DNA of 64,000 bases from positions 1-64,000 of IMG/VR virus record IMGVR_UViG_3300034220_000029; one strand, given 5' to 3'. The notes under the pieces are model-generated. The model was not told the DNA's origin, searched no databases, and saw nothing but the letters and a program-made list of their open reading frames with translations. Both the position numbers and the translations under genes were made by a program. This document shows positions 276 through 55,622 of this stretch, in pieces. Source of the DNA: a virus. Numbering within the stretch: the stretch's first letter is position 1; every line of letters starts with the position of its first letter.

Positions 276-1418
276 ATGGCGAGTGTTCAGGAACGAAACG
301 GGAAGCATCAGTTGCGGGTCAAACACCGGCTGCTGGTGAAGCCCTACCACCAGACCTTCGACACCGACGCTGAAGCGCGCTCGTATGGCTACAAGCTGGA
401 GGCGATGCTTGCCAGCGGGGTCGTGCCGATCGACATGCTGGCGGTGGAACCACGGGGCATCGATCCGACGATTGTCAGCCTGATCAAAGACTACCGCGAG
501 CGCGCGCCCATCACCGACTCCGACAACGTGCTGCTCAATGCCGTGGAGCCGGAGGTGAAGGCCCTGCGCGTGTCGGGGGTCACGTTCCTCTGGGCCGAAA
601 CCTATGTCAAAGACTTAAAGCTGGTGAAGAACCTGGCGCCAGGCTCCATCAGGAAGCGTGTGGGCGTGCTGGCGCGAATCCTGGACTGGCACTTCCGCCG
701 CAGCGCCGTGAACGGCCAGGTCCCGGGCAACGCCCTGCGCCTGCTGCCGATCGGCTACAGCCAGTACAACCAGATTGACGAGTCGGCCCTTGGCAAGGGC
801 AAGGTGGCCAAGGTCGACGTCAAGCGCGATCTCAGGCTGCCGCCCGAGGACGAGGCGCGGGTGAGGTTGGCGTTGTCGGGGGTCAAGCGTAAGGATCGGG
901 AAAGGGGATTGACTCCTGACGCCGAGTTCACTCTTCTTTTCGACTTGATCATCGACACGGGCCTCAGATTGTCCGAAGCATACCGTCTCAGGATCGCTCA
1001 AATCGACTTCGCCATGGGTGTCATAGCGGTGGAAGGTTCCAAGGGCGCCAGGGGGCGCCTGAAGCCTCGTACGGTGCCGATGAAAAAAGAGCTGCGGGAG
1101 AAGCTGAAGAAATGGTGCACCGACCGCGTCGGCCTCGTGTTTTCGTTCTGGGACGGCACGAAGGAGGGCAGGGCACGGGCTACGTCGAAGCTGTCGGTGC
1201 GCTTTGGCAACCTGTTCGATTACGCCGGGGTCGAGAGACTCACGGAGCATGACTTGCGGCACGAGGCTTGCTGCCGGTGGGTCACGCTCCGTGGTTCTGA
1301 CGGGAGATGGGTGTTTTCAGATACGGAGATTTGCAAGATCATGGGGTGGACCAGCGCCGACATGATGCTTCGGTACGCCAGCCTCCGCGGGGAGGACCTG
1401 GCGAACCGCTTGCTCTAG
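276..1418 (+). CDS. int: Tyrosine recombinase / phage integrase
   Basis: This 380-residue protein has the fold order of phage tyrosine integrases: an N-terminal arm-binding region, a core-binding region, and a catalytic domain from about residue 190. Catalytic residues are visible as Arg231 (GLRLSE), the HxxR box (HDLR, His325 and Arg328), the tryptophan at GW (358) and the nucleophile Tyr367 (MLRYAS). I chose ATG at 276, behind GGGG-TGG; a GTG at 270 is in frame. It should integrate and, with the excisionase at 1971-2312, excise the phage at the neighbouring tRNA-Cys. It is the only rightward gene in the left arm. One copy of the dispersed motif (872-881) lies inside it, in a frame reading Leu-Ser-Gly. 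Confidence 0.93.
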   Translation: MASVQERNGKHQLRVKHRLLVKPYHQTFDTDAEARSYGYKLEAMLASGVVPIDMLAVEPRGIDPTIVSLIKDYRERAPITDSDNVLLNAVEPEVKALRVSGVTFLWAETYVKDLKLVKNLAPGSIRKRVGVLARILDWHFRRSAVNGQVPGNALRLLPIGYSQYNQIDESALGKGKVAKVDVKRDLRLPPEDEARVRLALSGVKRKDRERGLTPDAEFTLLFDLIIDTGLRLSEAYRLRIAQIDFAMGVIAVEGSKGARGRLKPRTVPMKKELREKLKKWCTDRVGLVFSFWDGTKEGRARATSKLSVRFGNLFDYAGVERLTEHDLRHEACCRWVTLRGSDGRWVFSDTEICKIMGWTSADMMLRYASLRGEDLANRLL

Positions 1419-1567
1419 TGTCCCCTGGCCTGCATGAACAGGCCGATGTTGCCAATCGCGTAACCCCAGAACGCGATGCCCAGGCCGGTCTGGTGTTTGA
1501 CGAAGACCTGGTCATACCCGATGTAGGCATAGGCCACGCCGATGATAGCGATCAACTCAGCGCTCAT
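1415..1567 (-). CDS. Small membrane protein (50 aa)
   Basis: The gene reads from ATG at 1567 to TAG and overlaps the integrase stop tail to tail. The peptide begins MSAELIAIIGVAYAYIGYD and has a second hydrophobic stretch (GIAFWGYAIGNIGLFM), giving two short membrane-type segments. Its ATG overlaps the stop of the upstream gene as ATGA, which supports real coupled translation. I recognise no family. It is the last gene of the leftward arm. Confidence 0.6.
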   Translation of the reverse strand: MSAELIAIIGVAYAYIGYDQVFVKHQTGLGIAFWGYAIGNIGLFMQARGH

Positions 1568-6431: not shown

Positions 6432-8558
6432 TTACAGCTGGATCAGGTGGTCGGCAACAGACTGGCTCACCTCCTCGTGCGTCACCAGCAGGATTTGCTG
6501 GAAGGAGCACTGAGCAAGGAAGCCGAGCATGTTGTCGGTGCGGTCGTGATCCATGGCAGCTGCTGGCTCGTCAAGGATCAGGAACGGGGCGGCCGGCAGG
6601 AACGTCCGGACCAGGGCAACCCGGATGGACAGGCCCAGGGCGTCGAGCGTGGAGCCGCTCATCGAGGTGACCGAGTGCCCGTCGACCTTGAAGCCGTCGG
6701 ATTCTTTGGTCACCTTGGAAGCGGTGCCGCGGATGTCGCTGAAGTAGCTGCTGACGGCTGTCAGGACGATGTTCCACAGCTTGTCTGCGATCAGAGGCTT
6801 GCACTGGCGCACCCGCTTGAGCAGGGCGTTGTTGAACTCAAGCGTCTCCAGATCGCGTTCGCGCTGGGCCAGAGCCTCGGTGCAGTCGGCCACAGCCGCC
6901 ACAGCCCGGTCGTAGGAGGCCTGCTGGTCCTTCAGGAACCGCTCAGCATCGCTCAGGGCGGTCACGGCGGCTGTGTGGGCTGCCCTGGCACGCTCTGCAG
7001 CGCCGCGGGCCGCTGTGAGGGTGTCCTGGGCGTCCTGCAGGGTTACTTCCGGCAGGGTCAGCAGGGCGTCCTGTGCATTGCTGTCCTCTTCCTGAGCCAC
7101 CAGCAGCTGGGCCTGAAGGCCTTCGAGGCGCACCACGTCAGCGTCATAGGCACGCTGGGAGGCCTGCAGCGCCTCGATCTGGCGCTTCAGGGCCGCCGTA
7201 TCGACCACCGCGCCAACCACTGGGCCCTTCCAGCGCAGCACAGGCGGCAGCTCGCCGTCGGCCAGCTCGCAGTAGTCAGGGTGCTGGTCCAGCACCTTCA
7301 GGGCGCCCGTTGAGGCGTTGCGGATGGCCCGCATGGCAACGAGGTCCTGCTGCACCGTAGCGATGCAGGTCTGCTGCTCCGCCCGATCAGCAGTCGCGGC
7401 GTCGAGCGCGGTCTGAGTCTCGGCATTTTTGGCCGCGACCTCTGGCACGCCGCTAAAGTCCTTGCCGCAGAAGGTGCAGCTGCCGTGCGTCAGCGTCTGC
7501 TTGAGCAGCCGGATGTCGCCGTCAAGGCGCGCAGCCCGGGCCTGCGTCACGGTCACGAGGGTGTCGAGCGCGCCGATCTCCGTGTCGAGCGCTTCGAGCG
7601 TGCCCTCGTAGGTGGCGCTGTCAGCGACCCGCGCAGCCGTGTAGGGCCCGACTTTTGCGAAGGCGGCGGCAATCGCGATGCCGTTGCCGGCGTCGGCGAT
7701 CTGCCGCTGCAGGGCCTCGACCTGGCCAGCGACGTTGTCGGGGGCGACACGGGTGCCGAGATTGCTGATCTTCTCCCGCAGCGCCAGCACAGCGCCTGCC
7801 GTGCGGGCAGCGTTGCGGATGGCGTTGTCCCGCTGCACCACGCGCTCGCGGGCCTCGGCGTGAGCTTCCTGGGCCTTCTGCTCGTCGGCTGTGAAGCGGT
7901 CCACGTCGAGCACTACCGACTGCAGCGAGAGCTTGGCCGAGTCGATGCGCGCTGCGGCAGCGTCTGCATCGAACGGGACGGCGTCTGCCTTGGCGCGCTC
8001 CAGCAGCTCCTGCGCAGCCTTGAGGGTCAGCTCGGCGGAGCCGGTGTTGCCAAGGGTCAGCTTCTCCTGCATCAGCTCAATCAGCCGGTCGATCTGGTCG
8101 AACTCGGCAAGCTTCTCGATCAGCGCGGTCGTCTCCTTGGCGCCAGACTCGAGGGCCCCGCGGATTTCGTTCTGGTTGGACAGGGTCAGGCGGGCGGCGG
8201 CGCCAGCGTCGACCTTGAGCAGGCGGGAAATGAATGCGGTGCACTCGTTCTGCCCAGTCACGATGCCGCCGTCATAGTTGATCTCGGCGCCAGACTTGCC
8301 GCGCTTGATCGTGTAGACGACGCTGTCGATGACGACCTCCAGCTCGACCTTCAGCGAGCCGACGGCCTCGCCCCAGGTCACGCAGTCTTCGAGCGCATCG
8401 CGGATTGCCTTCACGCCGAACAGGGCGTAGGAGATTGCTTCTAGCAGCGTGGACTTGCCCTGCTCGTTGAGGGCGCGGATGGCTGTCATGCCGGCGCCGA
8501 ACGTGACGCTGAGGTCACGGTGGCGGCGGAAGTTTGTCAGTGTGATTTTGTTAAGCAT
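6432..8558 (-). CDS. sbcC: Rad50/SbcC-like SMC ATPase
   Basis: This 708-residue SMC-type ATPase has Walker A NEQGKST (about 31-37), long coiled-coil arms, a zinc hook CTFC near 361-364, an ABC signature-like SGSTLDALGLS, Walker B LILDEP near 660-665 and a final histidine switch (LLVTHEE). This is the Rad50/SbcC architecture, shorter than the roughly 1050 residues of E. coli SbcC, as in T4 gp46 and other phages. It should pair with the nuclease at 9392-10507. ATG at 8558 is best placed behind GAAGG. It overlaps the thyX stop. The dispersed motif (7731-7743) lies in the arm-coding part, encoding Pro-Asp-Asn-Val. Confidence 0.92.
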   Translation of the reverse strand: MLNKITLTNFRRHRDLSVTFGAGMTAIRALNEQGKSTLLEAISYALFGVKAIRDALEDCVTWGEAVGSLKVELEVVIDSVVYTIKRGKSGAEINYDGGIVTGQNECTAFISRLLKVDAGAAARLTLSNQNEIRGALESGAKETTALIEKLAEFDQIDRLIELMQEKLTLGNTGSAELTLKAAQELLERAKADAVPFDADAAAARIDSAKLSLQSVVLDVDRFTADEQKAQEAHAEARERVVQRDNAIRNAARTAGAVLALREKISNLGTRVAPDNVAGQVEALQRQIADAGNGIAIAAAFAKVGPYTAARVADSATYEGTLEALDTEIGALDTLVTVTQARAARLDGDIRLLKQTLTHGSCTFCGKDFSGVPEVAAKNAETQTALDAATADRAEQQTCIATVQQDLVAMRAIRNASTGALKVLDQHPDYCELADGELPPVLRWKGPVVGAVVDTAALKRQIEALQASQRAYDADVVRLEGLQAQLLVAQEEDSNAQDALLTLPEVTLQDAQDTLTAARGAAERARAAHTAAVTALSDAERFLKDQQASYDRAVAAVADCTEALAQRERDLETLEFNNALLKRVRQCKPLIADKLWNIVLTAVSSYFSDIRGTASKVTKESDGFKVDGHSVTSMSGSTLDALGLSIRVALVRTFLPAAPFLILDEPAAAMDHDRTDNMLGFLAQCSFQQILLVTHEEVSQSVADHLIQL

Positions 8559-14600: not shown

Positions 14601-15066
14601 TCTCGTCGACCAGAACGGAGAGGTCGCCGTCAACTGTGGCCACGACGTTCTTCTCGTTGCGCAGATTCTTGCAGAGGTAGCCGATCACGTCGTCAGCTTC
14701 AAGGCCTTCCTGCTGCGCGATGTGCACGCCGAGATCGCGCATCATCTGTGTGGCACGCTCGCGGGCGATGTTCAGCTGCTCGCTGACCGCGTCACACTTG
14801 TCGCGGCCAACCTTGTAGGTGGGGAGGAACGAACGGCGGCGGAGCTTGGCGTTGCGCCCGTCCCAGACCAGAATGGCCTGGCGGGGGGCAAGGTCGAACT
14901 CCTTCAGGTGGTCGCTGAACTTCTCGAAGAAGCCGTCGATGCCGTACTGGGCGCCGTTGACCTGCACCGGTTTGCCGTCCACCTGAATGACGCGGCCTTC
15001 GTCATGGTCGACCCCGCGCAGCAGGGCCTGGTTCATCCAGCTGTTGCCGTCGATTATGAGACGCAT
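11614..15066 (-). CDS. polA: DNA polymerase I (family A) with FEN and 3'-5' exonuclease domains
   Basis: The 1150-residue protein starts with a 5'-3' exonuclease/FEN domain (IIDGNSWMNQ; EGLEADDVIGYL; VDGDLSVLV; GDPGDKIPGAKGFGD), continues with a 3'-5' exonuclease domain (FAALDIET near residue 330), and ends in a Pol A palm: SASDPNIQQMP, motif A LDFSGQELR, motif B RGDAKTVNFASQY with Phe at the dNTP/ddNTP-selecting position, and motif C PVHDEVVF. This is the replicative polymerase of the phage. It is larger than E. coli Pol I (928 residues), with an insertion between the exonuclease and polymerase parts. It overlaps the preceding gene by 13 bases. Confidence 0.95.
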   Translation of the reverse strand: MRLIIDGNSWMNQALLRGVDHDEGRVIQVDGKPVQVNGAQYGIDGFFEKFSDHLKEFDLAPRQAILVWDGRNAKLRRRSFLPTYKVGRDKCDAVSEQLNIARERATQMMRDLGVHIAQQEGLEADDVIGYLCKNLRNEKNVVATVDGDLSVLVDENTSVWRLGELNKNPFGGFPHKYITLYKALVGDPGDKIPGAKGFGDTKFVDLVRIFGLDGLDMLTDLIQNDQLDRLKEDIADFPHLQKLIDDKQGVATSWRVASLLINEVNTKKRPLELIPGMVKQWSELADEQRVPELRRFYGTKTLVTAANYDKAYGQVKAQMSLSPFAALDIETSSSEESDEWISRLKSLTENDRARIDVLGHELTGMSLTFGDNSQHTIYMPVDHKDTDNITVDQCRQMAELIPQKIHTVIQNRQFEFSVLYRTWGGKWADNGWHGMVPNAVDTKIGASYTNENYPKGLKDRSLRHLDYAQATYEQTTCKEGPVGSLKGGEVLKTFEKEIVAAVWGPSPARDGEEAEDVLLVAPVVQEWERRQYKMNELTGREVFDYGCDDTICTAALHTHYRLVMELEQTWGVYLEVEQLPEYLTSLAYVQGIPVSLENLRNMEARDEVAYEAAWATLKTYLLGHGWTGTVCPEFTEMSPAAVKEAAAMLVDTDEVQFTTKKRKLDGMAFDLCEQFPDSDMATILARVIEDGNVHALNKLMKDNFTGDPKINFGSPKQMQNLFYHVIKIKPRIFNKLTDKQREIEVFRNAFKKMRREKDGKEVEFSAEEMEALISKASTDDTAVEWALKKDNVTDEQRAVLKAYQTVRTVMTRRNLFYRPYKALPHWRDGYIHPSLNQCQAVTLRYSASDPNIQQMPKLGEGVEFRGVVQPHMADALVGSLDFSGQELRDMAEWSGDEALTACYVGDNLKDPHSLTAVAASLLLWGEAIEYDPFIAMLKGSDPVKAKKAKDLRGDAKTVNFASQYDAMAPKIAEELLSDEETAQAFLDAKDLAMPGIMIWKDNVRSQVERDGYATTRMGARRHLRETLMSDNRWEASKAGRQGPNFKIQGSGAEQTKLAMASMWRSGVFTGRFRARFYAPVHDEVVFSVHRDDAYEVIKIVHGCMTQPYGGKVIPIISSISLGRDFHQQIECGETVDSEVIAAAVSKAFEV

Positions 15067-15413
15067 GAGTTGGCTTTCGATTTGTTCCTGACGTCAGAGC
15101 CGTCGAGGAAAACACGACGCGTGGTCGTGTTTGGGATGAATCTTGGTTCGAGCCACTCGGGGTAGACCCCGGCGGCCGGCAGCTCCACAACGACGAGTGC
15201 GCTGATCTGGTAGCTGGGTGGCTTGGTGCTTTTGAGCTCAGCCACGATCCCCGTGCGCAGCTGCTCAGTGAGCCAGCCAAACACGAAGTGCTTTGAAATT
15301 TTGGCGGAGGCCACGCAGGCGATGAGGCCTGCGCGGGTCTTCGGTGTACGAAGGAGGCCGTTCAGTGTGGCCTCCGCTTTGCGCACCTGGGCGCGGCGCG
15401 ACTCCGGCTTCAT
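15054..15413 (-). CDS. Hypothetical protein (119 aa)
   Basis: Starts MKPESRRAQVRKAEATLNGL behind GAGG; the N-terminal half is basic and helical, the rest beta-rich (YQISALVVVELPAAGVYPEW). The longer open frame upstream is unlike protein and overlaps the TraR-like gene. Located directly upstream of the polymerase, it may be an accessory replication factor. No family is recognised. Confidence 0.62.
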   Translation of the reverse strand: MKPESRRAQVRKAEATLNGLLRTPKTRAGLIACVASAKISKHFVFGWLTEQLRTGIVAELKSTKPPSYQISALVVVELPAAGVYPEWLEPRFIPNTTTRRVFLDGSDVRNKSKANSCVS

Positions 15414-15655: not shown

Positions 15656-16203
15656 CAGTGAACCGCCTCGTGGAACGTCTCAGCCATGCTGCGGCCCGCG
15701 TGGATCAGGTCTTCCATCGTGTGGTCGTTCCGCACAAAGATAGAGATGCGGTTGATGGAGACGCCGTTTTCGGATTCGTGCTGGGCGGCAGCTCCGGTGA
15801 GGCCGACGTTGTCGGGGCGCTCGATGCGGACGATGATGCCGCCCAAGGCGATCACTGCGTCGGCTTCGTTGTCATACCGGCAGTCGGTGATGACGCTGTC
15901 CGGCCGGCCGTCGGCGATCCAGCGGCGCAGTGCGCGGTTCACCCAGGTCTCTTTGCCGAGCGTGTTGCGGATGCCGCTGCCGACTTCCTGCAGAGCCATG
16001 CGGCGGGTCTTGCCCAAGGCTTCGCTGTACTGCTCCTTGCCCAGGTTGTCGTGGTACAGGGCAGGGTCCTCGTCAGCGATCATCGCTGTGACATCCTTCA
16101 GTGCGTCGGCGAACGCGAGGCGGATGAAGCCTTTTTCGATCAAGCCTTTGGCAAAAGTATCTTTGCCGCTATGGGCGAGGCCCGTGATTGCGATCAATGT
16201 CAT
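15655..16203 (-). CDS. Deoxynucleoside monophosphate kinase-like P-loop protein
   Basis: The P-loop GLAHSGKDT lies at residues 8-16, followed by an acidic/aromatic dNMP-kinase-like body (FADALKDVTAMI; VITDCRYDNEADAV). It resembles T4 gp1-type kinases, which phosphorylate dNMPs for replication. I chose ATG at 16203; upstream TTG options fall inside the neighbouring gene. The dispersed motif (15805-15817) encodes ERPDNVG here. Confidence 0.82.
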   Translation of the reverse strand: MTLIAITGLAHSGKDTFAKGLIEKGFIRLAFADALKDVTAMIADEDPALYHDNLGKEQYSEALGKTRRMALQEVGSGIRNTLGKETWVNRALRRWIADGRPDSVITDCRYDNEADAVIALGGIIVRIERPDNVGLTGAAAQHESENGVSINRISIFVRNDHTMEDLIHAGRSMAETFHEAVH

Positions 16204-16435: not shown

Positions 16436-17397
16436 CGCAGGTCACCTTCCTTCAGATCGAGAAACTCGTGGGCCTTCTGGATCAGCGCGGTGTTTAGCCG
16501 GCGGTTGCTGTCCTTCCATGCAGGCGCCAGCAGATCGGAGAAGTCGGCACCTGACATCAGGATCGGCACCGCAACGCGATACAGGTCCATCAGCAAGGCT
16601 TGTTCGTCGAGGAGCTCACGGCATGCCGCGATTGCCCCGACAACGTCTGCAGTAGTGCCCACAACCTTGCTCTTGCTACGCTTTTTGCGCGGCACGAACC
16701 CGACGTGAATCGGTTTGATCGTGGGGATGGCTTCAGCGCTTTCCGTGCGGATCGCGCTGTTGATTGCCCAGAGCACGGCCGGCGAGAGGTTCTCGCCAGC
16801 CACAGCCTTGGCAAGTGGATGATTCGTGATCAGCAGCGGCACGCGCAGCCCGTCCATGCTGGCGTCGTGCGCCAGATCGGGGGCAACCCTCACGCGCTGC
16901 ATGAAGTTCGACCAGCAGCCGTCTGGCGCGGCCGACATGCGGCAGTCACCAAGGTCCAGGCTGACCGACGTCTCGTAGTACACAGCGGGGGTACGTGTCA
17001 TCGACGATGCAATGGCGACAAGCTTCGCGGCGGGGGTCCACCAGTCGCCGTCAGCGCAGCGCGGGCCAAAGAACGTGTCAGCCGCGGCGCCGGCATAGAC
17101 GCGCCTTGCGACGCGGTCAGGAACGGGCAGACGGCCAAGCGGCCGGTCCACGTACTCTTCGTAGATCATGACGACCTCGTCCCGATCCACCCGGGGGCGG
17201 GGGACGCACCAGTCAGCGGCAAAGATGCCGTTGCAGTGGTCGAAGATTGTGAAGCCCGGCAGCATGACTGGTTTCGCATCTTTGGGTTCGTCGAGCATGC
17301 GCGCCTGAACTGTGTAAGTGAGCCCCAGTTCACCCAGGGCCTTCGCAACAATGTTCAGGGCGCGCCGCCCGTCGACCCAATTAGGCGCCGGAAGCAC
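16411..17397 (-). CDS. Hypothetical protein (328 aa)
   Basis: This is a soluble protein with alternating hydrophobic and charged regions, a basic cluster PRKKRSKSKVV around residue 240 and a helical C-terminus. No catalytic motif is recognised. It overlaps the MazG-like gene by 17 bases. A copy of the dispersed motif (16635-16647) sits here in the reverse orientation, encoding Ala-Asp-Val-Val-Gly. Confidence 0.65.
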   Translation of the reverse strand: MLPAPNWVDGRRALNIVAKALGELGLTYTVQARMLDEPKDAKPVMLPGFTIFDHCNGIFAADWCVPRPRVDRDEVVMIYEEYVDRPLGRLPVPDRVARRVYAGAAADTFFGPRCADGDWWTPAAKLVAIASSMTRTPAVYYETSVSLDLGDCRMSAAPDGCWSNFMQRVRVAPDLAHDASMDGLRVPLLITNHPLAKAVAGENLSPAVLWAINSAIRTESAEAIPTIKPIHVGFVPRKKRSKSKVVGTTADVVGAIAACRELLDEQALLMDLYRVAVPILMSGADFSDLLAPAWKDSNRRLNTALIQKAHEFLDLKEGDLRCRHEPAR

Positions 17398-17995: not shown

Positions 17996-18708
17996 TTTTT
18001 CTTTTTATTATCGAGGGCGAGTTGAACAGTGTATGCCAGGTCGTAGTCAAGGTCCATGTTTCCTTGCATCCAGCGGAAGTACGATGAGGGCACATCGGCG
18101 AACGCGTCGCCCTTGTGTTTGCCCATCGGCATCTTCGCCATCTCGAACGGCGGGGCCGAGGCCTGAGCCAGCTCACGCAGGGTCATGCCCGTGCGCTCGC
18201 AGAGATGTTTGGTCAAGTGAAACGCGGTCATCACGTCTGCCATCACCCTGTGCGCACCAGTGGAGCGCGGCAGGTTCAAGGCGTAGATCATGGTTGACAA
18301 CTGGTGGTTGCCGGACTCTGGGTAGAGTCGTCGTACCCAACGCAGCGTGCATAGCTCCTGCACGATGTTGGGCATGTAAGGCTTCAGGAACCGATGGTCG
18401 AATGCGATGCGGTGCCCAATGAGCACTACAGGGTCTTCGATCTTCGAGCCGAAGCAGCTTGGGTCGTCGAGGCCGAAAAATTCCTCGATGGTCGGTGAGT
18501 TCTCGACGTCCGCGTTGACGAGGTGGTGTACACCTGACGACTCCGGCGAGATGAATCGCTCAGGGTCGATCAGGCTTTCCACTTCCCGGATCACGTTGAA
18601 GTGCTCGTCGATCTCCAGCCAGCCCACCTCAACAACTTTGTCGTCTTCTTCGACTCCAGTTGTCTCAGTGTCACAGACCAAATATCTGACGTTGTCGGGG
18701 AGGCTCAT
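17992..18708 (-). CDS. DnaQ-like 3'-5' exonuclease with DUF3820-type tail
   Basis: DEDDh exonuclease motifs are present: CDTETTG (Asp13, Glu15), IGHRIAFDHRFL and GAHRVMADV. The C-terminal MPMGKHKGDAFADVPSSYFR is the DUF3820-type GKxKG...P.xYxxW domain often fused to such nucleases. It probably proofreads or trims DNA. The dispersed motif occupies codons 3-7 (Leu-Pro-Asp-Asn-Val), next to the start codon. Confidence 0.85.
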   Translation of the reverse strand: MSLPDNVRYLVCDTETTGVEEDDKVVEVGWLEIDEHFNVIREVESLIDPERFISPESSGVHHLVNADVENSPTIEEFFGLDDPSCFGSKIEDPVVLIGHRIAFDHRFLKPYMPNIVQELCTLRWVRRLYPESGNHQLSTMIYALNLPRSTGAHRVMADVMTAFHLTKHLCERTGMTLRELAQASAPPFEMAKMPMGKHKGDAFADVPSSYFRWMQGNMDLDYDLAYTVQLALDNKKKK

Positions 18709-23054: not shown

Positions 23055-24453
23055 AAACGGCCCTTCTCAAATCTTTGTATCCTCCTTGGACACTGTTCGC
23101 CAGCTCATCATTGTCCAGAAGGTTTCTGAACATGCCTACCTGAACAGTTCCCTGCGCTATCGCCAAGCGGCAGTGAACCACGTCATCCTGGCCGTCGCGA
23201 TCCAACCTCGCCACCACCTGATGGAAGGGCGTTGGCGTTGTCGGGGCCTCAACAATGAGCATATCAGAGCACACATGCTGTAGGCCGTCGACCCCAAAGC
23301 CTGCGCTCTGTGGCTGAATCTGGATGACCCTGCAAAGCGGGTCGTCGATAAAGCGCTCGATCGCCGCGAGCTTGGCCTTCGGAGAAACGTCCCCGTAGAC
23401 CGCCACCGCGTTGTATTTGGTCAATGCCCCCTGCAGGTACTTGTTGGTGCGGCGAAAGTTCGCCACCACAACTAGCTTCTTCTCGCCAATCTCTTCCAGC
23501 GTCTCCTCGATCATGTCGAGCACCGCCGGCCGCCGGTCGGGATTTTCATCGAATTCCCCCCAGTTGACAATAATTTGTTGCAGGGCGGATCGCAGCTTGC
23601 TCGCCGAGATCGCGTCAATTTCCTTGCCGTTATCGAACTCCACGAGGCGTTCCTCAGCGATACGGTGGTAGAGCTTCAGGTGAGCATCCTCAAGGTTGTA
23701 AGGCCTTGGGGTAAAAATAACATCCGGCAGGTCCTTCTTAACCTCCCTGCGGAGCACGCGCGACGTCTGCACCTTCATGTTCTGGGCCAGCAGGTCAAGG
23801 TTCACCCAGGACGTCACGTTGTCATACTCGTCCTTCTCGCCGACGTGCAGCCGCTCGAAGTGCCGTTTGTTCCTGTACAGGCCCGGGGCGATGAGCTTCA
23901 TATAGGCGTAGGAATCGCCAGGCTTGTTGACGGGCGTGCCGGTCAGCGGCAGCAGCGGGCGCTCCTCCGACATCAGCGCGATCGCCTTGTGGTTCTGGCT
24001 CTCGATGTTCTTGATCGCGGTGGCCTCGTCGGCAATGATGCCGAGCCGGCGACCTTCAAAATAGCCGTGCAAGTGCTCGAAGTCGTTCTTCAGCATGCCG
24101 TAGGTCAGCAGGATGAAGTCGGCGCTCAGGTCAAGCTGGAGCCGCTTCTTGGGGGCACCCGCGTAGAGCGTGGCGGACAGGGCCTTGCCCGTCTTGAGGT
24201 TCGTGATGCTGCCGAGCCACAGGTACCACTGCACCAGCAGGATAGGCGGCAGCACGACCAGCCATTGAGCGTAGCCGTGCTGGATCATCCAGTACAGGGC
24301 GTGGTGGGTGGAGCCGGCGGTCTTGCCGGCCCCGGGGTCCCAGTAGTAGCCGGCCCGAGGGTACTGGGCCAGCTCGTTCACCTCCTCTATCTGGAAGGGA
24401 TACAAGACAAACGGAAATTTGAATTGCTCCCTGACTGCTTCGTAAGGCGTCAT
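23044..24453 (-). CDS. SF2 / SNF2-like DNA helicase
   Basis: Helicase motifs in order: YPFQIEEVNEL (Q-motif-like), DPGAGKT (I), ADEATAIKN (II, DEAx), LTGTPVNK (III), and in the second RecA domain QPQSAGFGVDGLQ (V) and HQVVARLDRDGQ (VI, SNF2-type QxxxRxxRxGQ). The 469-residue size suits a phage replication or recombination helicase. A motif copy (23237-23246) encodes Ala-Pro-Thr-Thr here, a different frame from the usual Pro-Asp-Asn. Confidence 0.9.
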   Translation of the reverse strand: MTPYEAVREQFKFPFVLYPFQIEEVNELAQYPRAGYYWDPGAGKTAGSTHHALYWMIQHGYAQWLVVLPPILLVQWYLWLGSITNLKTGKALSATLYAGAPKKRLQLDLSADFILLTYGMLKNDFEHLHGYFEGRRLGIIADEATAIKNIESQNHKAIALMSEERPLLPLTGTPVNKPGDSYAYMKLIAPGLYRNKRHFERLHVGEKDEYDNVTSWVNLDLLAQNMKVQTSRVLRREVKKDLPDVIFTPRPYNLEDAHLKLYHRIAEERLVEFDNGKEIDAISASKLRSALQQIIVNWGEFDENPDRRPAVLDMIEETLEEIGEKKLVVVANFRRTNKYLQGALTKYNAVAVYGDVSPKAKLAAIERFIDDPLCRVIQIQPQSAGFGVDGLQHVCSDMLIVEAPTTPTPFHQVVARLDRDGQDDVVHCRLAIAQGTVQVGMFRNLLDNDELANSVQGGYKDLRRAVYGG

Positions 24454-31767: not shown

Positions 31768-33162
31768 TCAACCTACCGCCCGGTCAAGCCTGTACCCGGC
31801 GGTGGTGGCGATGCCAGCCACATCGACGTTGCGCAGGCATTGCCCGACGCGCTTCATCAAGGCGATGACCATGCCGGGTGCAACGCCCTGGCCAAGCGCG
31901 ATGTGCTTGTCGGTGTTGGACATGCCGGCGACCAGCGCCGGGTTGACACCCTTGATCCGTGCATGCTCGTCGCCGCTGAAGAGGCGCAGCAGGTTGGGGT
32001 CAGTCGGGTGCTTGAGCAGCGGGTCGGTCGAGCCGCCCTTGTGATAGCCCTTGCGCAGCGTCGGGACCTTGGTGGAAGTGGGGTCGACGATCTGCATCTG
32101 GAAGCCCTTGCCGGCTGCCTTGTCGGTCACAGCCTTGTCCTTGAGGTACTGGAAGGTGCCCCAGTGGTGGTCGCCGTGCCGGTCGAGGATGTCAGCCACG
32201 GTGCGAACTGGGCGCACAGCTGGAGCCAGGCCAGCAAGGTCCAGCGTGATGCCGCGGGTGACGGCCACGAGGAACCAGCGGATGCGCTTTTCGAGGGCGC
32301 CGAAGTCCTGCGAGTCCAGCACCACTTCGTGGGTCGAGTAGCCCATGTCGCGCAGCTGCTGGCGGATGATCGATGCCGAGGCGGAGGTGGCGTACTCAGG
32401 GACGTTCTCCAGCAGCACCACACCGGGCTGAAACTTCTGGACGAACGTCAGGAAGGCGTGGGCAAGGTGGCCGACCTCGGGGTGGTCTTCCATCATGGCG
32501 ATCCCGTGCTTGGATTTGCCGGCCTTGCTGGCGCCGCTGCAGGGGATGCCAGCCACCAGCACGTCGGCGTAGGGAAGGGAGGCCATCAGCGCCTCGTCCT
32601 GGATCGCTTCCTGCATCGGTGCTGCGATCGTCATCGTTGTCGGGGTGATGGCGTCGTTGGCGGAGCTGGCATGCTCCAGCAGGTCGGCGTCAATCTCGTT
32701 GACGACCACGGCATGCGCGGCGATCCCGACCTGAGCCAGACCGGCGTGGGCGGCGTTGTCGAGGATGCCGGCGCCGAAGGCCAGGCCCGCCACCGTCAGG
32801 GCCGCACCGCTCAAACCGGTGCGCAAACGTGCGAGGCGGGTCGTGGCGGCCTTTTCGGAGGCCAGCTGGGAGATCAGGATCTCGCCGTCGTTGAATTCGA
32901 CCTTGACGGCCTCCATGCCCTTGAAGGCGCCGAGCACCAGGTCGGAGTTCAGATCGATCACCGGGACCGACTTGGCACCCTCACCCTTGCCGGACACAAG
33001 GAATCCGCCCTCAGGGTTGCTGTACAGGCGCACAGCGTCTTCCTTGACGTCGATGGAGTAGCGGTCGCCCCGCTTGAATCCGCAGCCTGCAAGGCGTTGG
33101 GTCTGGAAGTAAAGGCGTGGCCGGCCGCGGTGCGACCCGACCTGTTTGGTCTCGTAGTGCAT
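31768..33162 (-). CDS. DNA (cytosine-5) methyltransferase
   Basis: C5-methyltransferase motifs are present: motif I FGAGILDNAAHAG, motif IV GIPCSGAS (catalytic Cys), motif VI LLENVPE, motif VIII EKRIRWF, and a C-terminal GQGVAPGMV (motif X-like). About 120 N-terminal residues form an extra beta-rich domain. No restriction partner is nearby, so it is an orphan enzyme that may protect phage DNA or mark regulatory sites. A motif copy (32636-32645) encodes Thr-Pro-Thr-Thr. Confidence 0.88.
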   Translation of the reverse strand: MHYETKQVGSHRGRPRLYFQTQRLAGCGFKRGDRYSIDVKEDAVRLYSNPEGGFLVSGKGEGAKSVPVIDLNSDLVLGAFKGMEAVKVEFNDGEILISQLASEKAATTRLARLRTGLSGAALTVAGLAFGAGILDNAAHAGLAQVGIAAHAVVVNEIDADLLEHASSANDAITPTTMTIAAPMQEAIQDEALMASLPYADVLVAGIPCSGASKAGKSKHGIAMMEDHPEVGHLAHAFLTFVQKFQPGVVLLENVPEYATSASASIIRQQLRDMGYSTHEVVLDSQDFGALEKRIRWFLVAVTRGITLDLAGLAPAVRPVRTVADILDRHGDHHWGTFQYLKDKAVTDKAAGKGFQMQIVDPTSTKVPTLRKGYHKGGSTDPLLKHPTDPNLLRLFSGDEHARIKGVNPALVAGMSNTDKHIALGQGVAPGMVIALMKRVGQCLRNVDVAGIATTAGYRLDRAVG

Positions 33163-35307: not shown

Positions 35308-35629
35308 GGGCAACCTCCAGCTTCCCGACCGTGATCAGGTGCGTGCGCAGCGCGTTGGTGGCGGCGGCGTAGCAGCTGTGCGAATGGAACTCGCCGACGG
35401 TCTGGATGTTGCCGTTGTCGGGGTCCTGGCGCCGCACGCTGAAGCCGACCACGCCCGAAGGGTTGGTCTCTTGCGTGACGAAGTAGTTGCCGTGGTCAGT
35501 CTTCACGCCGACGCCGGGCAGCACTGTGCGGAAGAACACGAGTGTTTCGGTGTCGAACCAGTGGCGGAACTCGCCGGGGCGGTACAGCCGCTTGATCTCG
35601 GCCATGGAAATGGCGGGGTATCCAAGCAT
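35297..35629 (-). CDS. Conserved phage protein (110 aa)
   Basis: MAEIKRLYRPGEFRHWFDTE, TLVFFRTVLPGVGV, then YFVTQE and FSVRRQDPDNGNIQTVGEFH resemble a small phage family (DUF7447-like, from memory). The motif copy at 35414-35423 encodes Asp-Pro-Asp-Asn. It has its own leader hairpin. Confidence 0.62.
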   Translation of the reverse strand: MLGYPAISMAEIKRLYRPGEFRHWFDTETLVFFRTVLPGVGVKTDHGNYFVTQETNPSGVVGFSVRRQDPDNGNIQTVGEFHSHSCYAAATNALRTHLITVGKLEVAHAA

Positions 35630-39254: not shown

Positions 39255-39502
39255 TTGGTCTGCCTTTCAAAGATGGGCTCGAAGACTTCGCTGATGTCGT
39301 TGTCGGGGACCAGGTCGTCGTTGACCGTGTCGCCACAGCCGACAGCGAAGTCCTCGATCGCGTCGAGCACGGCGTCATGGACGGGTCCAGGCCACTCTTC
39401 GCCGATGACAGTCACGCGCTCCAGCTCCCCAAGGGCTTCCCAGAAGGCGACCTTGGCGGAGATCACCGCACGAGCTGCGGCACATTGTTCGGGGGTCATC
39501 AT
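39251..39502 (-). CDS. Hypothetical protein (83 aa)
   Basis: Helical N-terminus (CAAARAVISAKVAFWEALGE) and an acidic C-terminus (DTVNDDLVPDNDISEVF), in which the dispersed motif (39296-39308) encodes Val-Pro-Asp-Asn. No family is recognised. Confidence 0.58.
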   Translation of the reverse strand: MMTPEQCAAARAVISAKVAFWEALGELERVTVIGEEWPGPVHDAVLDAIEDFAVGCGDTVNDDLVPDNDISEVFEPIFERQTK

Positions 39503-45161: not shown

Positions 45162-45416
45162 TTACACCGGGCGGTGTGCTTCTTTATTGATAGCTGCCTG
45201 TGCCCGTGCGACAAGGGCTCCAGTGTCACCGCGGGTATATACCACCAGTGGTTTTTCAAACACAGTGGGCATTACCTGCGCGTAGATGGCGACGTTGTCG
45301 GGGCAGTCCTCATTGCCGTCGATCTCGAACGAGGCGAAGACCGGCGGGTCAAGCCGGCGCAGCGCCGTGCTGCGCAGCCAGGCCACGTCCTCACGGTCAT
45401 TGAGGAACTGGATCAT
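45162..45416 (-). CDS. Hypothetical protein (84 aa)
   Basis: MIQFLNDREDVAWLRSTALR, then FASFEIDGNEDCPDNVAIYA with the motif (45291-45303) encoding Cys-Pro-Asp-Asn-Val. ATGA coupling upstream. No family is recognised. Confidence 0.6.
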   Translation of the reverse strand: MIQFLNDREDVAWLRSTALRRLDPPVFASFEIDGNEDCPDNVAIYAQVMPTVFEKPLVVYTRGDTGALVARAQAAINKEAHRPV

Positions 45417-46140: not shown

Positions 46141-46550
46141 GCTGGCGCTCCCGGTGGGTTGTAGATCAGGCCCCTCAACTCAGCGAGGGCTTGCATGCGC
46201 GCCTCGAAGCGGGTGAGGAAGTCTCCGCTGCCGGAGAAGCTGTCGTGGGCCCGCTGCATATCGCAGAGCAGGTCCAGCGCTGCGTTGCCTTCAATCCCCG
46301 CGGCCTTCAGTGCCGCCTCGAACCTGTTCCTGGTTAGGGACTCGGGGCGCAGGTGCATCCACACCGTCGTGCCGTCACCCTGCTCGTCGAAGACTGGGTC
46401 GTAGGCGTTGTCGGGGATGAGGCCGCCGACAATGCACTTGTCACCGTTCGGTGCCCGGTACATGCAGGCGCCGTCTTCGTCATGAGAGGCGCGGCCCTGC
46501 GTCCTGATGTGGTTCAGGCCTTCGTCGAAGATTTGCTGTAGCGTTTTCAT
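46137..46550 (-). CDS. Conserved phage protein (137 aa)
   Basis: LQQIFDEGLNHIRTQGRASH, CMYRAPNGDKCIVGGLIPDN and LDLLCDMQRAHD match a family common in phage accessory regions whose function is unknown. The motif (46407-46416) encodes Ile-Pro-Asp-Asn. Confidence 0.66.
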   Translation of the reverse strand: MKTLQQIFDEGLNHIRTQGRASHDEDGACMYRAPNGDKCIVGGLIPDNAYDPVFDEQGDGTTVWMHLRPESLTRNRFEAALKAAGIEGNAALDLLCDMQRAHDSFSGSGDFLTRFEARMQALAELRGLIYNPPGAPA

Positions 46551-49120: not shown

Positions 49121-49390
49121 TCAGTCCCCGACAACGTCTGAGCCTTGAACTGCGGCGAGATCAACCTTCACCTTGGCGTGAAGGCCCCGCATGCCGAGGG
49201 CGTGGCGCAGTTTGCTGGCTGCCTCAAGGGCATAGGCCCTGCTGCGGCCGTTCACGCCGCCCAGCAGGTCGTGGATGGCTTCGAGCCCGGCTCGCATGGC
49301 CACGGTGTCTCGGTCGGTGGCGGCGCGGGCCGCAATGTTGTCGACGAGCTGCCGGGCTACGGCAGCGCGCTCAATGTTTGGGTCAGTCAT
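49121..49390 (-). CDS. Hypothetical protein (89 aa)
   Basis: MTDPNIERAAVARQLVDNIA; Ala/Arg-rich and helical (RSRAYALEAASKLRHALGMR). It overlaps the upstream gene end by 8 bases. No family is recognised. Confidence 0.58.
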   Translation of the reverse strand: MTDPNIERAAVARQLVDNIAARAATDRDTVAMRAGLEAIHDLLGGVNGRSRAYALEAASKLRHALGMRGLHAKVKVDLAAVQGSDVVGD

Positions 49391-49610: not shown

Positions 49611-49891
49611 GGCGTGTCCTTCATGTTGGCGTTGTCGGGGCGTCGCGGGTATCGGCTGTGACCCAGGTGTGTCGCGTAGGCGAGGGGCACAGCGGGTGAG
49701 GGTGAGGGTGACAGGGGCGGTGACGTTGTCGGGGTTGTCGCCGGATGGCGACAACTTTGACGTTGTCGGGGTGCGTTTCAAATGGGAAACGACCTTAGAC
49801 CGTTGATTTCATTGAAGAATAAAAATTCCTGATTTGCAAAATAGGGGTGCAGGGTAAAACGGCCTTTTTCATGAGAAAGTTACAAAGTACG

Positions 49892-49906
49892 TTTCACATT
49901 ATGAAA
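49892..49906. repeat. Palindrome related to the inverted repeat at 50214
   Basis: TTTCACATTATGAAA is self-complementary at its ends (TTTCA/TGAAA) and differs from TTTCACATTGTGGAA at two positions. Possibly a third operator of the same kind. Confidence 0.45.
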
Positions 49907-50213
49907 TGAAGTAAAAAAATAAAAGTGATTCCACCAGCTTCGGGGGACTTATATTTAACTACTCTTTTTTCTGTTTCTATTCAACAACTTGATCGCGTTT
50001 TTCTGCAAAAATGTGCCTCTTTTTTGAGCACAGCTGGATACTTGTCCAGTGGTTTTTGTCTGTTACAACTGTAACGATGCTATCAATTTTGACGTGAGTA
50101 AGCGCTAATTTAAGGCGTTTAATTGGGGACAGAGTAGCGATTTTGTTACAACTTGCGCTCCAGACCTGCCCCCGACAACGTCATGCACCAAATCAGTGCC
50201 AAAACTATGCAAA

Positions 50214-50283
50214 TTTCACATTGTGGAACGCCCAGGACCTGCCCCCGACAACGTCAAGCGCAGGAAAATTCCACAATGTGAAA
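50214..50283. repeat. 15-bp perfect inverted repeat
   Basis: TTTCACATTGTGGAA (50214-50228) and its exact complement TTCCACAATGTGAAA (50269-50283) flank 40 bases that contain one motif copy. It may be a paired operator or a hairpin. Confidence 0.75.
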
Positions 50284-50317
50284 TGTCGAGGGCCCAGCCC
50301 CCGACAACGTCACCGTC

Positions 50318-50569
50318 TCAGGCAAAGACGGCGGCCTGATTCCTGGCCGCCCAGTACGTGCGGCCTGCCAGAACGGGCGCTGGTGCCGGTTCTTGGTAGA
50401 AGTCAGCCACCAGCACTGGGTTATGCCCGTCCGTGGCGTACAGGCGCCCTGAGCAGGCCCTGGCGCGGCTTTCCGATCGAGCCCTGTTCTTGCTCAGTAC
50501 ACCGTAGCGGGTGAAGACAGCGCCGGGCATGGTGACGTTGTCGGGGCGCATGACGTAGTACAGCATCAT
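50318..50569 (-). CDS. Hypothetical protein (83 aa)
   Basis: MMLYYVMRPDNVTMPGAVFT carries the motif (50534-50546) in the Pro-Asp-Asn-Val frame; an Arg/Ala-rich middle follows, then ADFYQEPAPAPVLAGRTYW. The start overlaps the stop of the 21-codon leader gene (ATGATG). Confidence 0.55.
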   Translation of the reverse strand: MMLYYVMRPDNVTMPGAVFTRYGVLSKNRARSESRARACSGRLYATDGHNPVLVADFYQEPAPAPVLAGRTYWAARNQAAVFA

Positions 50570-50631
50570 GCACCCAGCAAGGCGGTCAGGGCTTCGTCGA
50601 GGACAGGCAGCTCAGGGGTGTAGTCGATCAT
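50566..50631 (-). CDS. 21-residue leader peptide gene
   Basis: MIDYTPELPVLDEALTALLG-A, directly behind a good site (TTTGGAGTTCAAC) and the leader hairpin. Its stop overlaps the next ATG, so it may control translation of the 83-residue protein. Confidence 0.5.
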   Translation of the reverse strand: MIDYTPELPVLDEALTALLGA

Positions 50632-50647
50632 GTTGAACTCCAAATGA

Positions 50648-50662
50648 GGCGCAAATCGCGCC
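50648..50662 (-). promoter_or_regulatory. Leader hairpin (GGCGC-GATTT-GCGCC) before SD
   Basis: A five-pair stem with five-base loop followed by TCATTTGGAGTTCAAC and the 21-codon gene. Confidence 0.65.
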
Positions 50663-51555
50663 GGGTTGCGGGACAAGGCAAAGAGCAGGGTCCGTGTGCA
50701 GGGCCCTGTTATTTGCCCCCGACAACGTCAATGCCTCTGGCGGCGGCGTTGTCGGGGACTCAGGTTTTAAACCGCGTCTCAAAGCGAGACGGTTGGCCGG
50801 CCAGTGCCGGGATTCCACAGTACGCGCCCTGTGTTATGGCGTTGCATATACCCTTGCGATCGGGTTCGTTATTCAGCTTATGCGACCACCTCCCGCCCCG
50901 TCGTTGTCGGGGTTTGCCGGAGTTGCTGCATATTCCTTTTTCAGGTTCAGCACGGCGCTGCAGAACAGCGCGCTACTCGTGGGGATGTGTCATCGCACCT
51001 GGCCATTGCTTTCGCGGGACCATGGGCTCAGCAGTGGTGTCTGCTGGTTGCGGGCTTTCACCGGCTAGGCCTCTGTGATGTGCATGGGTCAGTCGATCGG
51101 TCGGCCTGTTGTGAGTGACTTGGCCGCCGTCAATGCTGGTTCAGCATCACATAGCGTAGGGCTGCCACGGGTAGCCCGTCAGGGCCCGCAATGGTGGCAG
51201 CTTGGCAGTGCCTGCACAGCAAGCCCCGACAATGTGAGCGCCTTCGAGCGTGAATCCGGATGCTGCAACTGGTGCGGGCAAGGGGACAAACGCTGTCCAG
51301 GTGGGGGCCATAGAGGCCGCCACGGGGCAGGGGCGCCGACGGTACTAGCGCTATGCGCGCTGGCGTTGTCGGGGATACTGTGCAAACTTTTAAGGGGCGG
51401 CCCGGGTAACGGATTCACCGGGCATGGGCTTAGCGCCGATGCTGGGGGAAAGCGTTACCGTATCCCTTTCGGGGGGCGAGCAGTGCGATGACTGGCTTTA
51501 GGATGCTATCATTTTGATAGCATGCTAAAGCCTGCTTTTGCAGGCTTCAGGGTGT
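50663..51555. other. Probable non-coding region (~0.9 kb)
   Basis: Several reading frames are open on the plus strand at once, but none has a convincing start site or protein-like sequence, so I call no gene. It holds four perfect motif copies (50717, 50748, 50903, 51365), one degenerate copy (51224) and the stem CGTCTC-AAAGC-GAGACG at 50775-50791, whose loop on the minus strand is GCTTT, as in the gene leaders. Confidence 0.5.
51503..51547 (-). terminator. Two hairpins after the 51556 gene
   Basis: AAGCCTGC-TTTT-GCAGGCTT (51528-51547) and ATGCTATCA-TTT-TGATAGCAT (51503-51523) are perfect stems just past the stop of the regulator-like gene in transcription order. U-runs are short, so termination may be partial. 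Confidence 0.6.
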
Positions 51556-52317: not shown

Positions 52318-52347
52318 CTGACCTAATAAATGTGTTCCATGTATAAT
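52318..52347 (+). promoter_or_regulatory. Rightward (late) promoter
   Basis: A perfect TATAAT at 52342-52347, seven bases before the start ATG of the first late gene, with a weak -35 (CTGACC/TGACCT, 52318-52324) inside the repeated operator. The very short leader suggests a nearly leaderless start or a downstream initiation site. Confidence 0.6.
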
Positions 52348-52353
52348 CGGCGC

Positions 52354-52785
52354 ATGCCTAAAATTGCACGCCCTCGTCCAGAATACGAAGCCCTCGTCCA
52401 GCGCATTGCGCGCGGCGAGATCACGCGCCCCGAAGCGGCCACACTTGCCGCTTCCAGCACCGGTCTGAGCGCGAACACCTTCCTCAGCTGGCTGCGCAGC
52501 TCCGGCAGGGTGAAGGACTTGATCGACCGACGCGGTACCGTTGGCCAGAACAGCATCCACGCCCACAAGGACCCCGACAAGGTCCTCGCCTACGAGAACG
52601 CCCTCAACGCGGTGATGGGCGGAGACCTGACCATGGTCGCCGCGGCCAAGAAGTTCGACGTCTCGTACCGCTACCTGGTCAAAAAGGTCCACAAGGCGAA
52701 GGAAAACCTCGACAAGGCCCTCGTGGAGGAGCCGATCCCGAACCTGGAGCGGGCCATCTACGAGGCCTCGGCGGCCCACCTGTGA
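52354..52785 (+). CDS. Two-HTH DNA-binding protein, first late gene (143 aa)
   Basis: Two helix-turn-helix regions: GEITRPEAATLAASSTGLSA with NTFLSWLRSSG, and GDLTMVAAAKKFDVSYRYLV. This resembles small-terminase or transposase-type N-termini. As it heads the morphogenesis operon it could be a terminase small subunit or a late regulator; the helical protein at 53467 competes for the terminase role. Start at ATG 52354; no strong ribosome site is visible. Confidence 0.68.
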   Translation: MPKIARPRPEYEALVQRIARGEITRPEAATLAASSTGLSANTFLSWLRSSGRVKDLIDRRGTVGQNSIHAHKDPDKVLAYENALNAVMGGDLTMVAAAKKFDVSYRYLVKKVHKAKENLDKALVEEPIPNLERAIYEASAAHL

Positions 52786-53466: not shown

Positions 53467-53904
53467 ATGGATGATGTCCCCGATCTGCCAGTAGCCGCGT
53501 CCAACGCGGCGCCAGGCAAGAAGACCAGCGTAGCGCAGTTCGACCTCACGGCGATGCCGGTGAACGAGCTGCTGTCGTTGCGTGCGCAGATTGAGGCGCG
53601 GCTGCCGGCCAAAGACCTCAAGGACATGGACATGGCGCGCGAGCTGGTGCTCCAGGTGCTGGTGCTGCAGCAGATGCAGCAGGTGGTGCTCGACGACGGC
53701 GACACGCCGGCCAACCAGAAGGCCCAGGTGGCCAACAGCCTCTCGGCCGCGCTGATCAACCTCGTGCGGCTCCAGACCGACGTCTACACGAGCGAGCGGC
53801 TCAAGCAAATCGAGCAGGCGCTGGAGGAGACGATCAACGGCCTCGATGAGCCCGTGCGCACGCTGTTCATGGACCGGTACGGTACCGCGCTGGGGGTCCT
53901 GTGA
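53467..53904 (+). CDS. Terminase small subunit-like protein (145 aa)
   Basis: An all-helical protein (NELLSLRAQIEARLPAKDLK; VLVLQQMQQVV; QVANSLSAALINLVRLQTDV) immediately upstream of and overlapping the large terminase start. Length, position and helix pattern fit small terminase subunits that form DNA-binding rings. It lacks a visible HTH, unlike the protein at 52354. Confidence 0.6.
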   Translation: MDDVPDLPVAASNAAPGKKTSVAQFDLTAMPVNELLSLRAQIEARLPAKDLKDMDMARELVLQVLVLQQMQQVVLDDGDTPANQKAQVANSLSAALINLVRLQTDVYTSERLKQIEQALEETINGLDEPVRTLFMDRYGTALGVL

Positions 53905-55622
53905 GCCTTGAGCTGGCGGACCAGCATTACAAGCGCCTGCTGTCGAAGACGACGCGGCGCCTGTCCCGCGCCGACCTTGCCAAGTGGATCACCGACAACA
54001 CGTACATCGGCGGCCGGCCGTTCTCGTTCAAGGACCACGAGTTTCAGGAAAAAATCCTGCAGGACACGAGCCAGGAGATCGTGATCATGAAGTCGGCCCA
54101 GCTGGGCCTGTCCGAGATGAGCCTGCGCATGGCGCTGGGCCTGGTGATGCTCATGCCGGGCAACTTCGCCATCGGCTACACGTTCCCGACAGCGTCCTTC
54201 GCGTCGCACTACTCGAAGACCCGGTTCGACCCCATCGTGCGCGGCTCGCCGAGCCTGCGCGCCGCGGTGCGGCTGACCGACCTCGACAACGCCGAGAGCA
54301 AGGCCTTCGGCCCCGGGCGCTTCATCTTTTTCAAGGGCGCCGCGGTCGGCAACGCCGCCATTTCCGACTCGCTTGACCTGCTGATCCACGACGAGCTTGA
54401 CTTCAGCGACCCCGACATCGTCGGCGACTACACCAGCCGCTTGATCCACTCGCCCTGGAAGATGAAAGTCAAGCTGTCCACGCCGACCTTCCCCGGCGGG
54501 CCGATCGACAGCGCGTTTGGCCAGTCCCGCAAGCACTTCAATTTCTGCCGGTGCCAGCACTGCAACACGCGGTTCATCCCGAATTTCTACGAGCACGTCA
54601 AGATTCCTGGCTGGGACAAGCACCTCGACGAGATCACGCGCGACAACCTGCACACCGTCAACTACGCCGCGGCGAAGCTGCTGTGCCCGAGCTGCTTCCA
54701 GGCGGTGGACCTGAACCCCGAGCACCGCGAGTGGGTGTGCGAGAACCCGGAGGAGCCGCACATCGCCGCCGGGTACAAGGTCAGCCCGTTCGATGCCCCG
54801 AACGTCATCACGCTGTCCAACCTGATCGAGGCGTCCACCAGCTACGCCAGCAAGGCGAAGTTCCGCCAGTTCTCCCTGGGCATTCCCGCGGCCGACGCCG
54901 ACAGCGGCTTGACCGAGGAGGACCTTGAGCGGATCGGGGTGCAGATGGTGCAGAGCCCGTTCACGACGCACGTCATGGGGATTGACCTGGGCTTGACCTG
55001 CCACTTCATGGTGGGCAGCTTGACGCCGGAGGGCCAGCTCGTCGTGGTGCACTACGAGCGGGTACCGCTCAAGGCCTTCCGCGAGCGGTACACCGCCCTG
55101 AAGTCGCAGTACCGCATCTCGATCGTGGTGAGCGACATCCAGCCGTACACCGACCTGATCATGTCGATGAGCGCCATTGACCACAACCTCTTCGGCGCCA
55201 GGTACGTGACGCGCCAAGGCCTTGAGGTCTACGACGTGAAGGTGCAAGACCCCGACAACGACAACGCCATCGAGGGCGTCCGCGAGATCAGCGTCAACCG
55301 GAACGCCATCTTCGACAAGATCATGTCGGAAGTGCGCCCGGCCGATGGCGAGGCCCCGCGCGTGGTGATCAGGAAGCTGGAGGACTGGGAGCTCATCAAA
55401 TCCCACATGACCGACATGAAGCGGGCCTCGGCGACCCTGCGCAACGGCGAGTTCACCAGCGTCTGGCAGAAGTCCAGCAAGGGCAACGACCACTACCACC
55501 ACACGCTGGGCTACCTCTGGATCGCCGCCCAGCTGCGCGGGATCGCGATGGGCGGCATGGCCACCGGGATGCCTGGCGTCAGCACTTTCAAGATCAAGGG
55601 CTCCACGCCGGTCCGTAGGTAG
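53901..55622 (+). CDS. terL: Terminase large subunit (GpA-type)
   Basis: GTG start overlapping the preceding stop (GTGA). The ATPase has a Walker A-like MKSAQLGLSE (residues 63-72) and Walker B LLIHDELD near 160; a zinc-ribbon-like insertion (CRCQHC, CPSC) lies between 215 and 275; the nuclease part begins at GIDLGLTCHF. This is the lambda GpA type, which makes cos ends or headful cuts. It drives DNA into the prohead with the portal encoded next. A motif copy (55250-55259) encodes Asp-Pro-Asp-Asn. Confidence 0.93.
   Translation: MSLELADQHYKRLLSKTTRRLSRADLAKWITDNTYIGGRPFSFKDHEFQEKILQDTSQEIVIMKSAQLGLSEMSLRMALGLVMLMPGNFAIGYTFPTASFASHYSKTRFDPIVRGSPSLRAAVRLTDLDNAESKAFGPGRFIFFKGAAVGNAAISDSLDLLIHDELDFSDPDIVGDYTSRLIHSPWKMKVKLSTPTFPGGPIDSAFGQSRKHFNFCRCQHCNTRFIPNFYEHVKIPGWDKHLDEITRDNLHTVNYAAAKLLCPSCFQAVDLNPEHREWVCENPEEPHIAAGYKVSPFDAPNVITLSNLIEASTSYASKAKFRQFSLGIPAADADSGLTEEDLERIGVQMVQSPFTTHVMGIDLGLTCHFMVGSLTPEGQLVVVHYERVPLKAFRERYTALKSQYRISIVVSDIQPYTDLIMSMSAIDHNLFGARYVTRQGLEVYDVKVQDPDNDNAIEGVREISVNRNAIFDKIMSEVRPADGEAPRVVIRKLEDWELIKSHMTDMKRASATLRNGEFTSVWQKSSKGNDHYHHTLGYLWIAAQLRGIAMGGMATGMPGVSTFKIKGSTPVRR

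Follow-up and report, generated by a model that had tools for sequence, protein, structure and literature searches.

Why does one short DNA word recur along a phage genome, within genes as well as between them, and what keeps it there? The question is raised by the IMG/VR virus record IMGVR_UViG_3300034220_000029, the 84,353-bp record of a phage that we call G000 (other genomes carry labels of the same form); the window covers positions 1 to 64,000 of this record. On the sense strand the word reads 5'-CCCCGACAACGTC-3', with the core CCCCGACAAC. The window contains 27 copies of the core GTTGTCGGGG over both strands, against 0.25 expected (dinucleotide shuffles: mean 0.25, maximum 2), and 15 of the 27 extend to the full 13-mer GACGTTGTCGGGG. 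An original prediction had found these copies by eye: all of its 27 coordinates and strands are exact, its count of fifteen 13-mers stands, and three GACGCTGTCGGGG variants lie where it placed them, at 20958, 30657 and 36938. Three further core copies past the window, at 80,786, 82,626 and 82,675, bring the whole record to 30, and genomes across the phage family carry 10 to 30 exact copies each. Counting words of 8 to 13 letters against an order-3 Markov background, a check that the prediction had proposed, puts this word first at every length. It is non-palindromic, and so has the form of a stoperator-type site, asymmetric, ~13 bp long and dispersed in 20–30 copies. As detailed below, the word is selected as DNA, conserved through a clade, arranged as a cluster plus dispersed copies, biased in orientation between genes and carried by phages of temperate lifestyle. 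We infer from this, with slightly less than even confidence, that a phage-encoded protein, which would control the early arm of these temperate phages, binds the word as an asymmetric site, both the binding and the role in transcription being read from the pattern.

The word might instead reflect a mere codon or protein preference, Pro-Asp-Asn (PDN) written in preferred codons. Gene calling by a custom script gave 129 genes in G000 (93% coding), and all word copies were mapped onto these calls. The 16 in-gene sense copies fall in two frames, PDN (12) and Pro-Thr-Thr (PTT, 4), and four more copies are antisense; the copies do occupy different frames, as had been claimed, though unevenly, and the PDN frame holds most of them, as a codon preference would have it. 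When synonymous codons were shuffled within each gene (500 shuffles), a few copies already arose, 3.0 in sense (maximum 8) and 0.08 in antisense, against the 16 and 4 observed. The early arms of all word-bearing genomes show the same under a codon-preserving null, with 81 sense copies versus 21.4 and 10 antisense copies versus 0.23, and the word-lacking G014 and G015 have no in-gene copies where ~0.3 each are expected. The word has shaped the proteins and thereby raised this null itself: PDN tripeptides number 14 in G000 (2.4 expected) and 21 in G024 (2.9 expected), and are near expectation in word-lacking G015. They are coded exactly as CCC GAC AAC in 12 of 14 cases in G000 and 18 of 21 in G024, where codon usage predicts about a quarter; word-lacking G014 uses these codons for two of its six. 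The word is thus retained even at the cost of altered proteins, seen as excess Pro-Asp-Asn. Eleven copies in a non-coding zone, and the absence of the word from relatives of similar codon usage, also run counter to a codon preference, to which we assign a negligible probability; the codon-preserving shuffles rule out a codon or protein artefact. The codon-aware null that the original prediction set against its 27 copies gives about 3, and its view that DNA and not protein is under selection is borne out by the codon nulls, the coding of PDN, the non-coding cluster and the exact word kept in distant relatives.

Terminase-based searches led to relatives at ~48–53% identity, and the same 10–11-mer is kept among phages whose terminases differ to this degree. 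Related phages, in which the original prediction had suggested looking, show strong enrichment of the word in about a dozen cases. It is the top k-mer of G003 and G019, is strongly enriched, though not always the single top word, in G024, G025, G026, G027, G030, G031 and G032, and is enriched in prophage DNA of Variovorax paradoxus (G021), an uncultured proteobacterium (G022) and a 43%-GC Methylotenera genome (G023). No copy occurs in G014, G015, Pseudomonas phage PMBT3, Vibrio phage K45 or a Methylobacterium phage-like plasmid, and G009 has three. On trees of the polymerase and primase, presence of the word requires three changes: G028, G029 and G034 form a nested subclade without the canonical word, and word-bearing G023 sits near word-less G009, G014 and G015 (polymerase) or deeper (primase). 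The three records of the nested subclade hold five copies of CCCCAACAACG against 0.1 expected; two occupy positions homologous to word sites, and CCCCAACAACG is possibly their one-base variant of the word. Another dispersed word was sought in G029; its repeats lie within single genes or are late-arm elements, and CCCCAACAACG alone was suggestive. A DNA-level comparison with isolated phages gave no match for this phage. A literature text search for the word returned no bacteriophage paper among the matches listed (one title concerned algal chloroviruses), and we found no published description of it in phages.

Eleven copies in both orientations are clustered at 49,628–51,374. The leftmost (49628..49640, +) stands 18 bp upstream of the gene at 49383–49610 and is followed by full 13-mers at 49722..49734 and 49759..49771 (both +). 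Next comes an AT-rich (60–68%) non-coding block of ~380 bp (49780..50160), with these three plus-strand words to its left and three minus-strand words to its right, full 13-mers at 50170..50182, 50243..50255 and 50299..50311. Beyond them lie a full 13-mer at 50534..50546 (+), an inverted pair with its left half at 50717..50729 (-) and its right half at 50745..50757 (+), and further words at 50900..50912 (+) and, in the non-coding zone, at 51362..51374 (+). All eleven had been described as non-coding, which fits the zone as a whole and not the copy at 50,534, since that copy lies within a weakly scored 83-aa frame (50318–50569). Control regions otherwise diverge between genomes, and what they conserve is mainly the word. 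The AT-rich block and word order of G027 are similar to those of G000, and the two also have ~100 bp in common beside the inverted pair. Inverted word pairs recur in G022, G024, G025, G026, G027 and G030, and an exact search of viral_contigs for such pairs returned six contigs, all of them clade genomes or carrying clade terminase and portal genes. To the right, the first gene of the rightward arm (52339..52785, +) encodes an HTH_psq domain and is a possible regulator. A second inverted-repeat element, around TTTCACATT, is present in or beside the AT-rich block (49892–49906, 50214–50228 and 50269–50283); these could be operator sites for a repressor of the phage's own.

The other copies in the window are single. 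Full 13-mers on the plus strand are found in an SbcC-like gene (7731..7743) and the gene at 15655–16203 (15805..15817), both in the PDN frame, in codons 3–7 of an exonuclease gene (18688..18700), in a DNA ligase gene in the PTT frame (26947..26959), and in the genes at 29199–29438 (29355..29367) and 45162–45416 (45291..45303). The core 10-mer is present, again on the plus strand, in the genes at 29440–29895 (29779..29791), 35297–35629 (35411..35423), 39251–39466 (39296..39308) and 46137–46550 (46404..46416), and in a C5 methyltransferase gene in the PTT frame (32633..32645). A SNF2-type helicase gene also carries the word in the PTT frame (23234..23246, +), and the homologous site in G028 reads CCCCAACAACG. 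Antisense copies lie within the integrase gene (869..881, +; GGCGTTGTCGGGG) and, as a full 13-mer read Asp-Val-Val-Gly (DVVG), within the gene at 16411–17397 (16635..16647, -). One full 13-mer (49126..49138, -) is at the junction of genes 49121–49390 and 48904–49119, just 5' of the start of the latter, and the copy in the terminase gene (55250..55262, -) is in sense relative to rightward transcription.

Most copies outside the cluster had been said to share one orientation relative to transcription. This is true of isolated intergenic copies with flanking genes in one direction (36 sense, 7 antisense by our gene calls, over the genomes compared); the in-gene sense bias, by contrast, matches codon fit, the codon null being itself strongly sense-biased, and clustered copies are evenly split (14 versus 15). 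Isolated intergenic copies are often 8–100 bp upstream of a start codon, and 16 in-gene sense copies, where 6.8 are expected, lie within 30 nt of a gene start. The word at the exonuclease start is in the same place in seven genomes (G000, G003, G019, G021, G024, G031 and G032), with CCC GAC AAC fixed and adjoining codons varying; G029 reads CCA GAA AAA there.

The phage is marked as temperate because it encodes a tyrosine integrase (PF00589; 336..1418, +). An integrase is present in nine of the ten word-bearing viral records searched, G031 being the one without, and the search found none in G009, G014 or G015. The 3' half of tRNA-Cys(GCA) is copied over 44 bp beside the integrase gene (54..97, +); the G022 prophage uses this sequence as its attachment core. 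That prophage starts at a tRNA-Cys(GCA) and, 78 kb on, is bounded by a 48-bp copy (91.7%) of the 3' end of the tRNA. The ends of G000, 1–97 and 84,280–84,353 (L024 4280–4353), have ~70 imperfectly matching bases in common, including the tRNA-Cys fragment, as if the record ran from one attachment site to the other.

In the explanation that we put first, a sequence-specific phage protein would bind the word throughout this clade of temperate phages. In the non-coding control region that heads the leftward early arm, the roughly ten words, which point both ways, would probably be operators. Single early-arm copies, intergenic or in codons and mostly pointing with transcription, would probably serve as oriented roadblocks or regulatory sites, and the dispersed sites may help to hold the early arm silent in the prophage. 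A bolder form, which we consider possible and hold with distinctly less confidence, is that a fixed word in the codons of replication genes would let one dedicated protein act along the early arm, a code within a code for silencing or organizing the genome that would be distinct from fast-changing immunity repressors.

Of the competing explanations, the nearest is a replication origin whose initiator also has sites farther out. The AT-rich block and the cluster would then form the phage origin with its initiator boxes, and dispersed copies would be secondary sites for an initiator, replication or recombination protein. The two-orientation cluster does flank the 380-bp AT-rich block, the arrangement of repeats beside an AT-rich region that is typical of iterons; replication genes and most copies sit in the early arm; GC skew switches sign near 52 kb, and word orientation would also agree with the direction of the forks, were replication to start near 50 kb. 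However, iteron-type boxes are not usually spread over 50 kb or held in codons, no initiator was recognized, and GC skew also tracks gene direction, so that we regard an origin as unlikely, if the best of the alternatives. It is less probable still that the word is a promoter or activator element, or an RNA-level signal for processing, antitermination or translation control. The sense-directed intergenic copies upstream of start codons and the excess near gene starts would suit such a role, whereas no -10-like or other element was found at a fixed distance from the word, a promoter scan was near chance, and an Rfam search matched no RNA family. The even split of cluster copies and the selection of antisense in-gene copies do not suit it either, and a promoter element was rejected as no companion element accompanies the words.

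Two of the three parallels drawn by the original prediction, Chi-like and parS-like sites, fare poorly, and we give each only a very slight chance. The word is polar, G-rich and dispersed, as a Chi-like or other host-read sequence would be, but the host chromosomes examined carry it, outside prophages, about once per 100–200 kb (29 copies in ~3.2 Mb, 32 in ~6.5 Mb), so the enrichment in hosts that the prediction had named as a counter-result is not seen, and a host Chi or uptake-like word was rejected. Of the 49 copies in the 3.3-Mb G022 genome, 20 fall within the 78 kb of the prophage, and the word therefore belongs to the phage and not the host. Partition sites of the parS type could likewise be asymmetric, clustered and dispersed, yet the ParB_N domain (PF02195) was not matched in nine clade genomes, and these phages encode integrases and integrate. 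A DNA methylation target was also rejected: among word phages a C5 methyltransferase is matched in G000, G024 and G027 alone, and word-lacking G014 has a weak match. The third parallel, with stoperators, is the best remaining analogy, with a mainly intergenic placement and a drifting motif not found here.

If a phage protein binds the word, two proteins of the window come into question. A candidate binder of 119 aa (15054..15413, -) is predicted to be a winged helix (core pLDDT ~90; top Foldseek matches are winged-helix regulators, E ~0.01), and it is present in all nine word genomes of one comparison and absent from the word-lackers in it. The word's distribution is followed most closely by the family of a 150-aa protein (24476..24928, -), whose predicted all-helical fold has no structural match. 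Several findings weigh against the binding-site explanation. G023 has the word and the neighboring genes and not the 119-aa protein, and G028, G029 and G034 have the protein and not the canonical word; co-occurrence thus fails both ways, and the 119-aa protein was rejected as the binder. G029 has an integrase and no canonical word. Scattered copies are mostly in the early arm, with few in the late arm. The orientation counts depend on our custom-script gene calls, and some 'intergenic' stretches may hide missed genes; the gene-start excess is partly inflated because the exonuclease gene recurs in several genomes. Unlike the stoperators of phage L5, to which we return below, dispersed copies here mostly fall within genes, and the word hardly varies, being the same at ~48% terminase identity.

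Other elements were seen in the compared genomes. G024 has five dispersed copies of the palindrome CGTTACCGGTAACG (L158 4585 and 5417; G024 1208, 65202 and 81401); gene 4693–5451, which may encode that phage's own repressor, has two of these at its ends. In the G022 prophage (C1 707.7–728.8 kb), nine gene starts carry TTTGGAGTTTCACAT(G), a ribosome-binding and start sequence in extended form that resembles start-associated sequences of other phages. GGGGATTTACTT occurs at or near late-arm gene junctions (G029 66,083 and 73,310; G000 77,980 and 79,821), and at both record ends G025 has predicted genes containing a tandem repeat of 18 bp around CCGTACACCC (L167 14–203; L170 ~16,516–16,723). In the phage of the Methylotenera genome, the primase gene contains a single in-frame TAG stop (L254 ~10,122–12,974; G023:C5:30122–32974). 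Vibrio phage K45 (OZ196709; L199/L200), a distant relative, carries 31 copies of the near-palindrome TTTGGTCTSAGACCAAA between 4,739 and 75,729, mostly just 5' of early-arm genes; this is a different dispersed operator-like element.

Dispersed, oriented protein sites have been characterized mainly in actinobacterial phages, and the phages described here present a comparable layout in temperate phages of Betaproteobacteria, their hosts being soil and water bacteria. The best analogy is with the stoperators of L5 and other cluster A phages, and the word may act as they do: these too are asymmetric 13-bp sites of temperate phages, with more than 20 dispersed copies mostly in one orientation relative to transcription (PMC9283540, PMC6550527). 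L5 stoperators, however, are found in promoters and in the short spaces between genes, and their motif drifts with the repressor; bound by a monomeric immunity repressor, they halt transcription elongation and confer immunity (PMC9283540, PMC6550527). The control-region cluster here is, moreover, bidirectional, and among the proteins scanned, part of the full set, no L5-type two-domain repressor (HTH plus stoperator domain) was recognized. Because the intergenic placement and drifting motif are not seen and such a repressor was not recognized, we do not class the word as a stoperator. Coliphage T1 and Citrobacter phage Stevie have 22-bp repeats that are likewise asymmetric, have no assigned function and are present in ~16–20 copies in one direction relative to transcription, but are longer, AT-rich and mainly intergenic and belong to lytic phages (PMC4319613). 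Nostoc cyanophage N-1, an unrelated phage, has 21 copies of asymmetric motifs with an 11-bp core, which are sited between reading frames and are not consistently aligned with flanking genes (PMC4916379). Set beside these systems, the present word is constant enough to mark a clade and selected strongly enough to alter proteins; it offers a testable system for the silencing or organizing of an 80-kb temperate genome by one short word, in which the word itself can be the bait for its protein.

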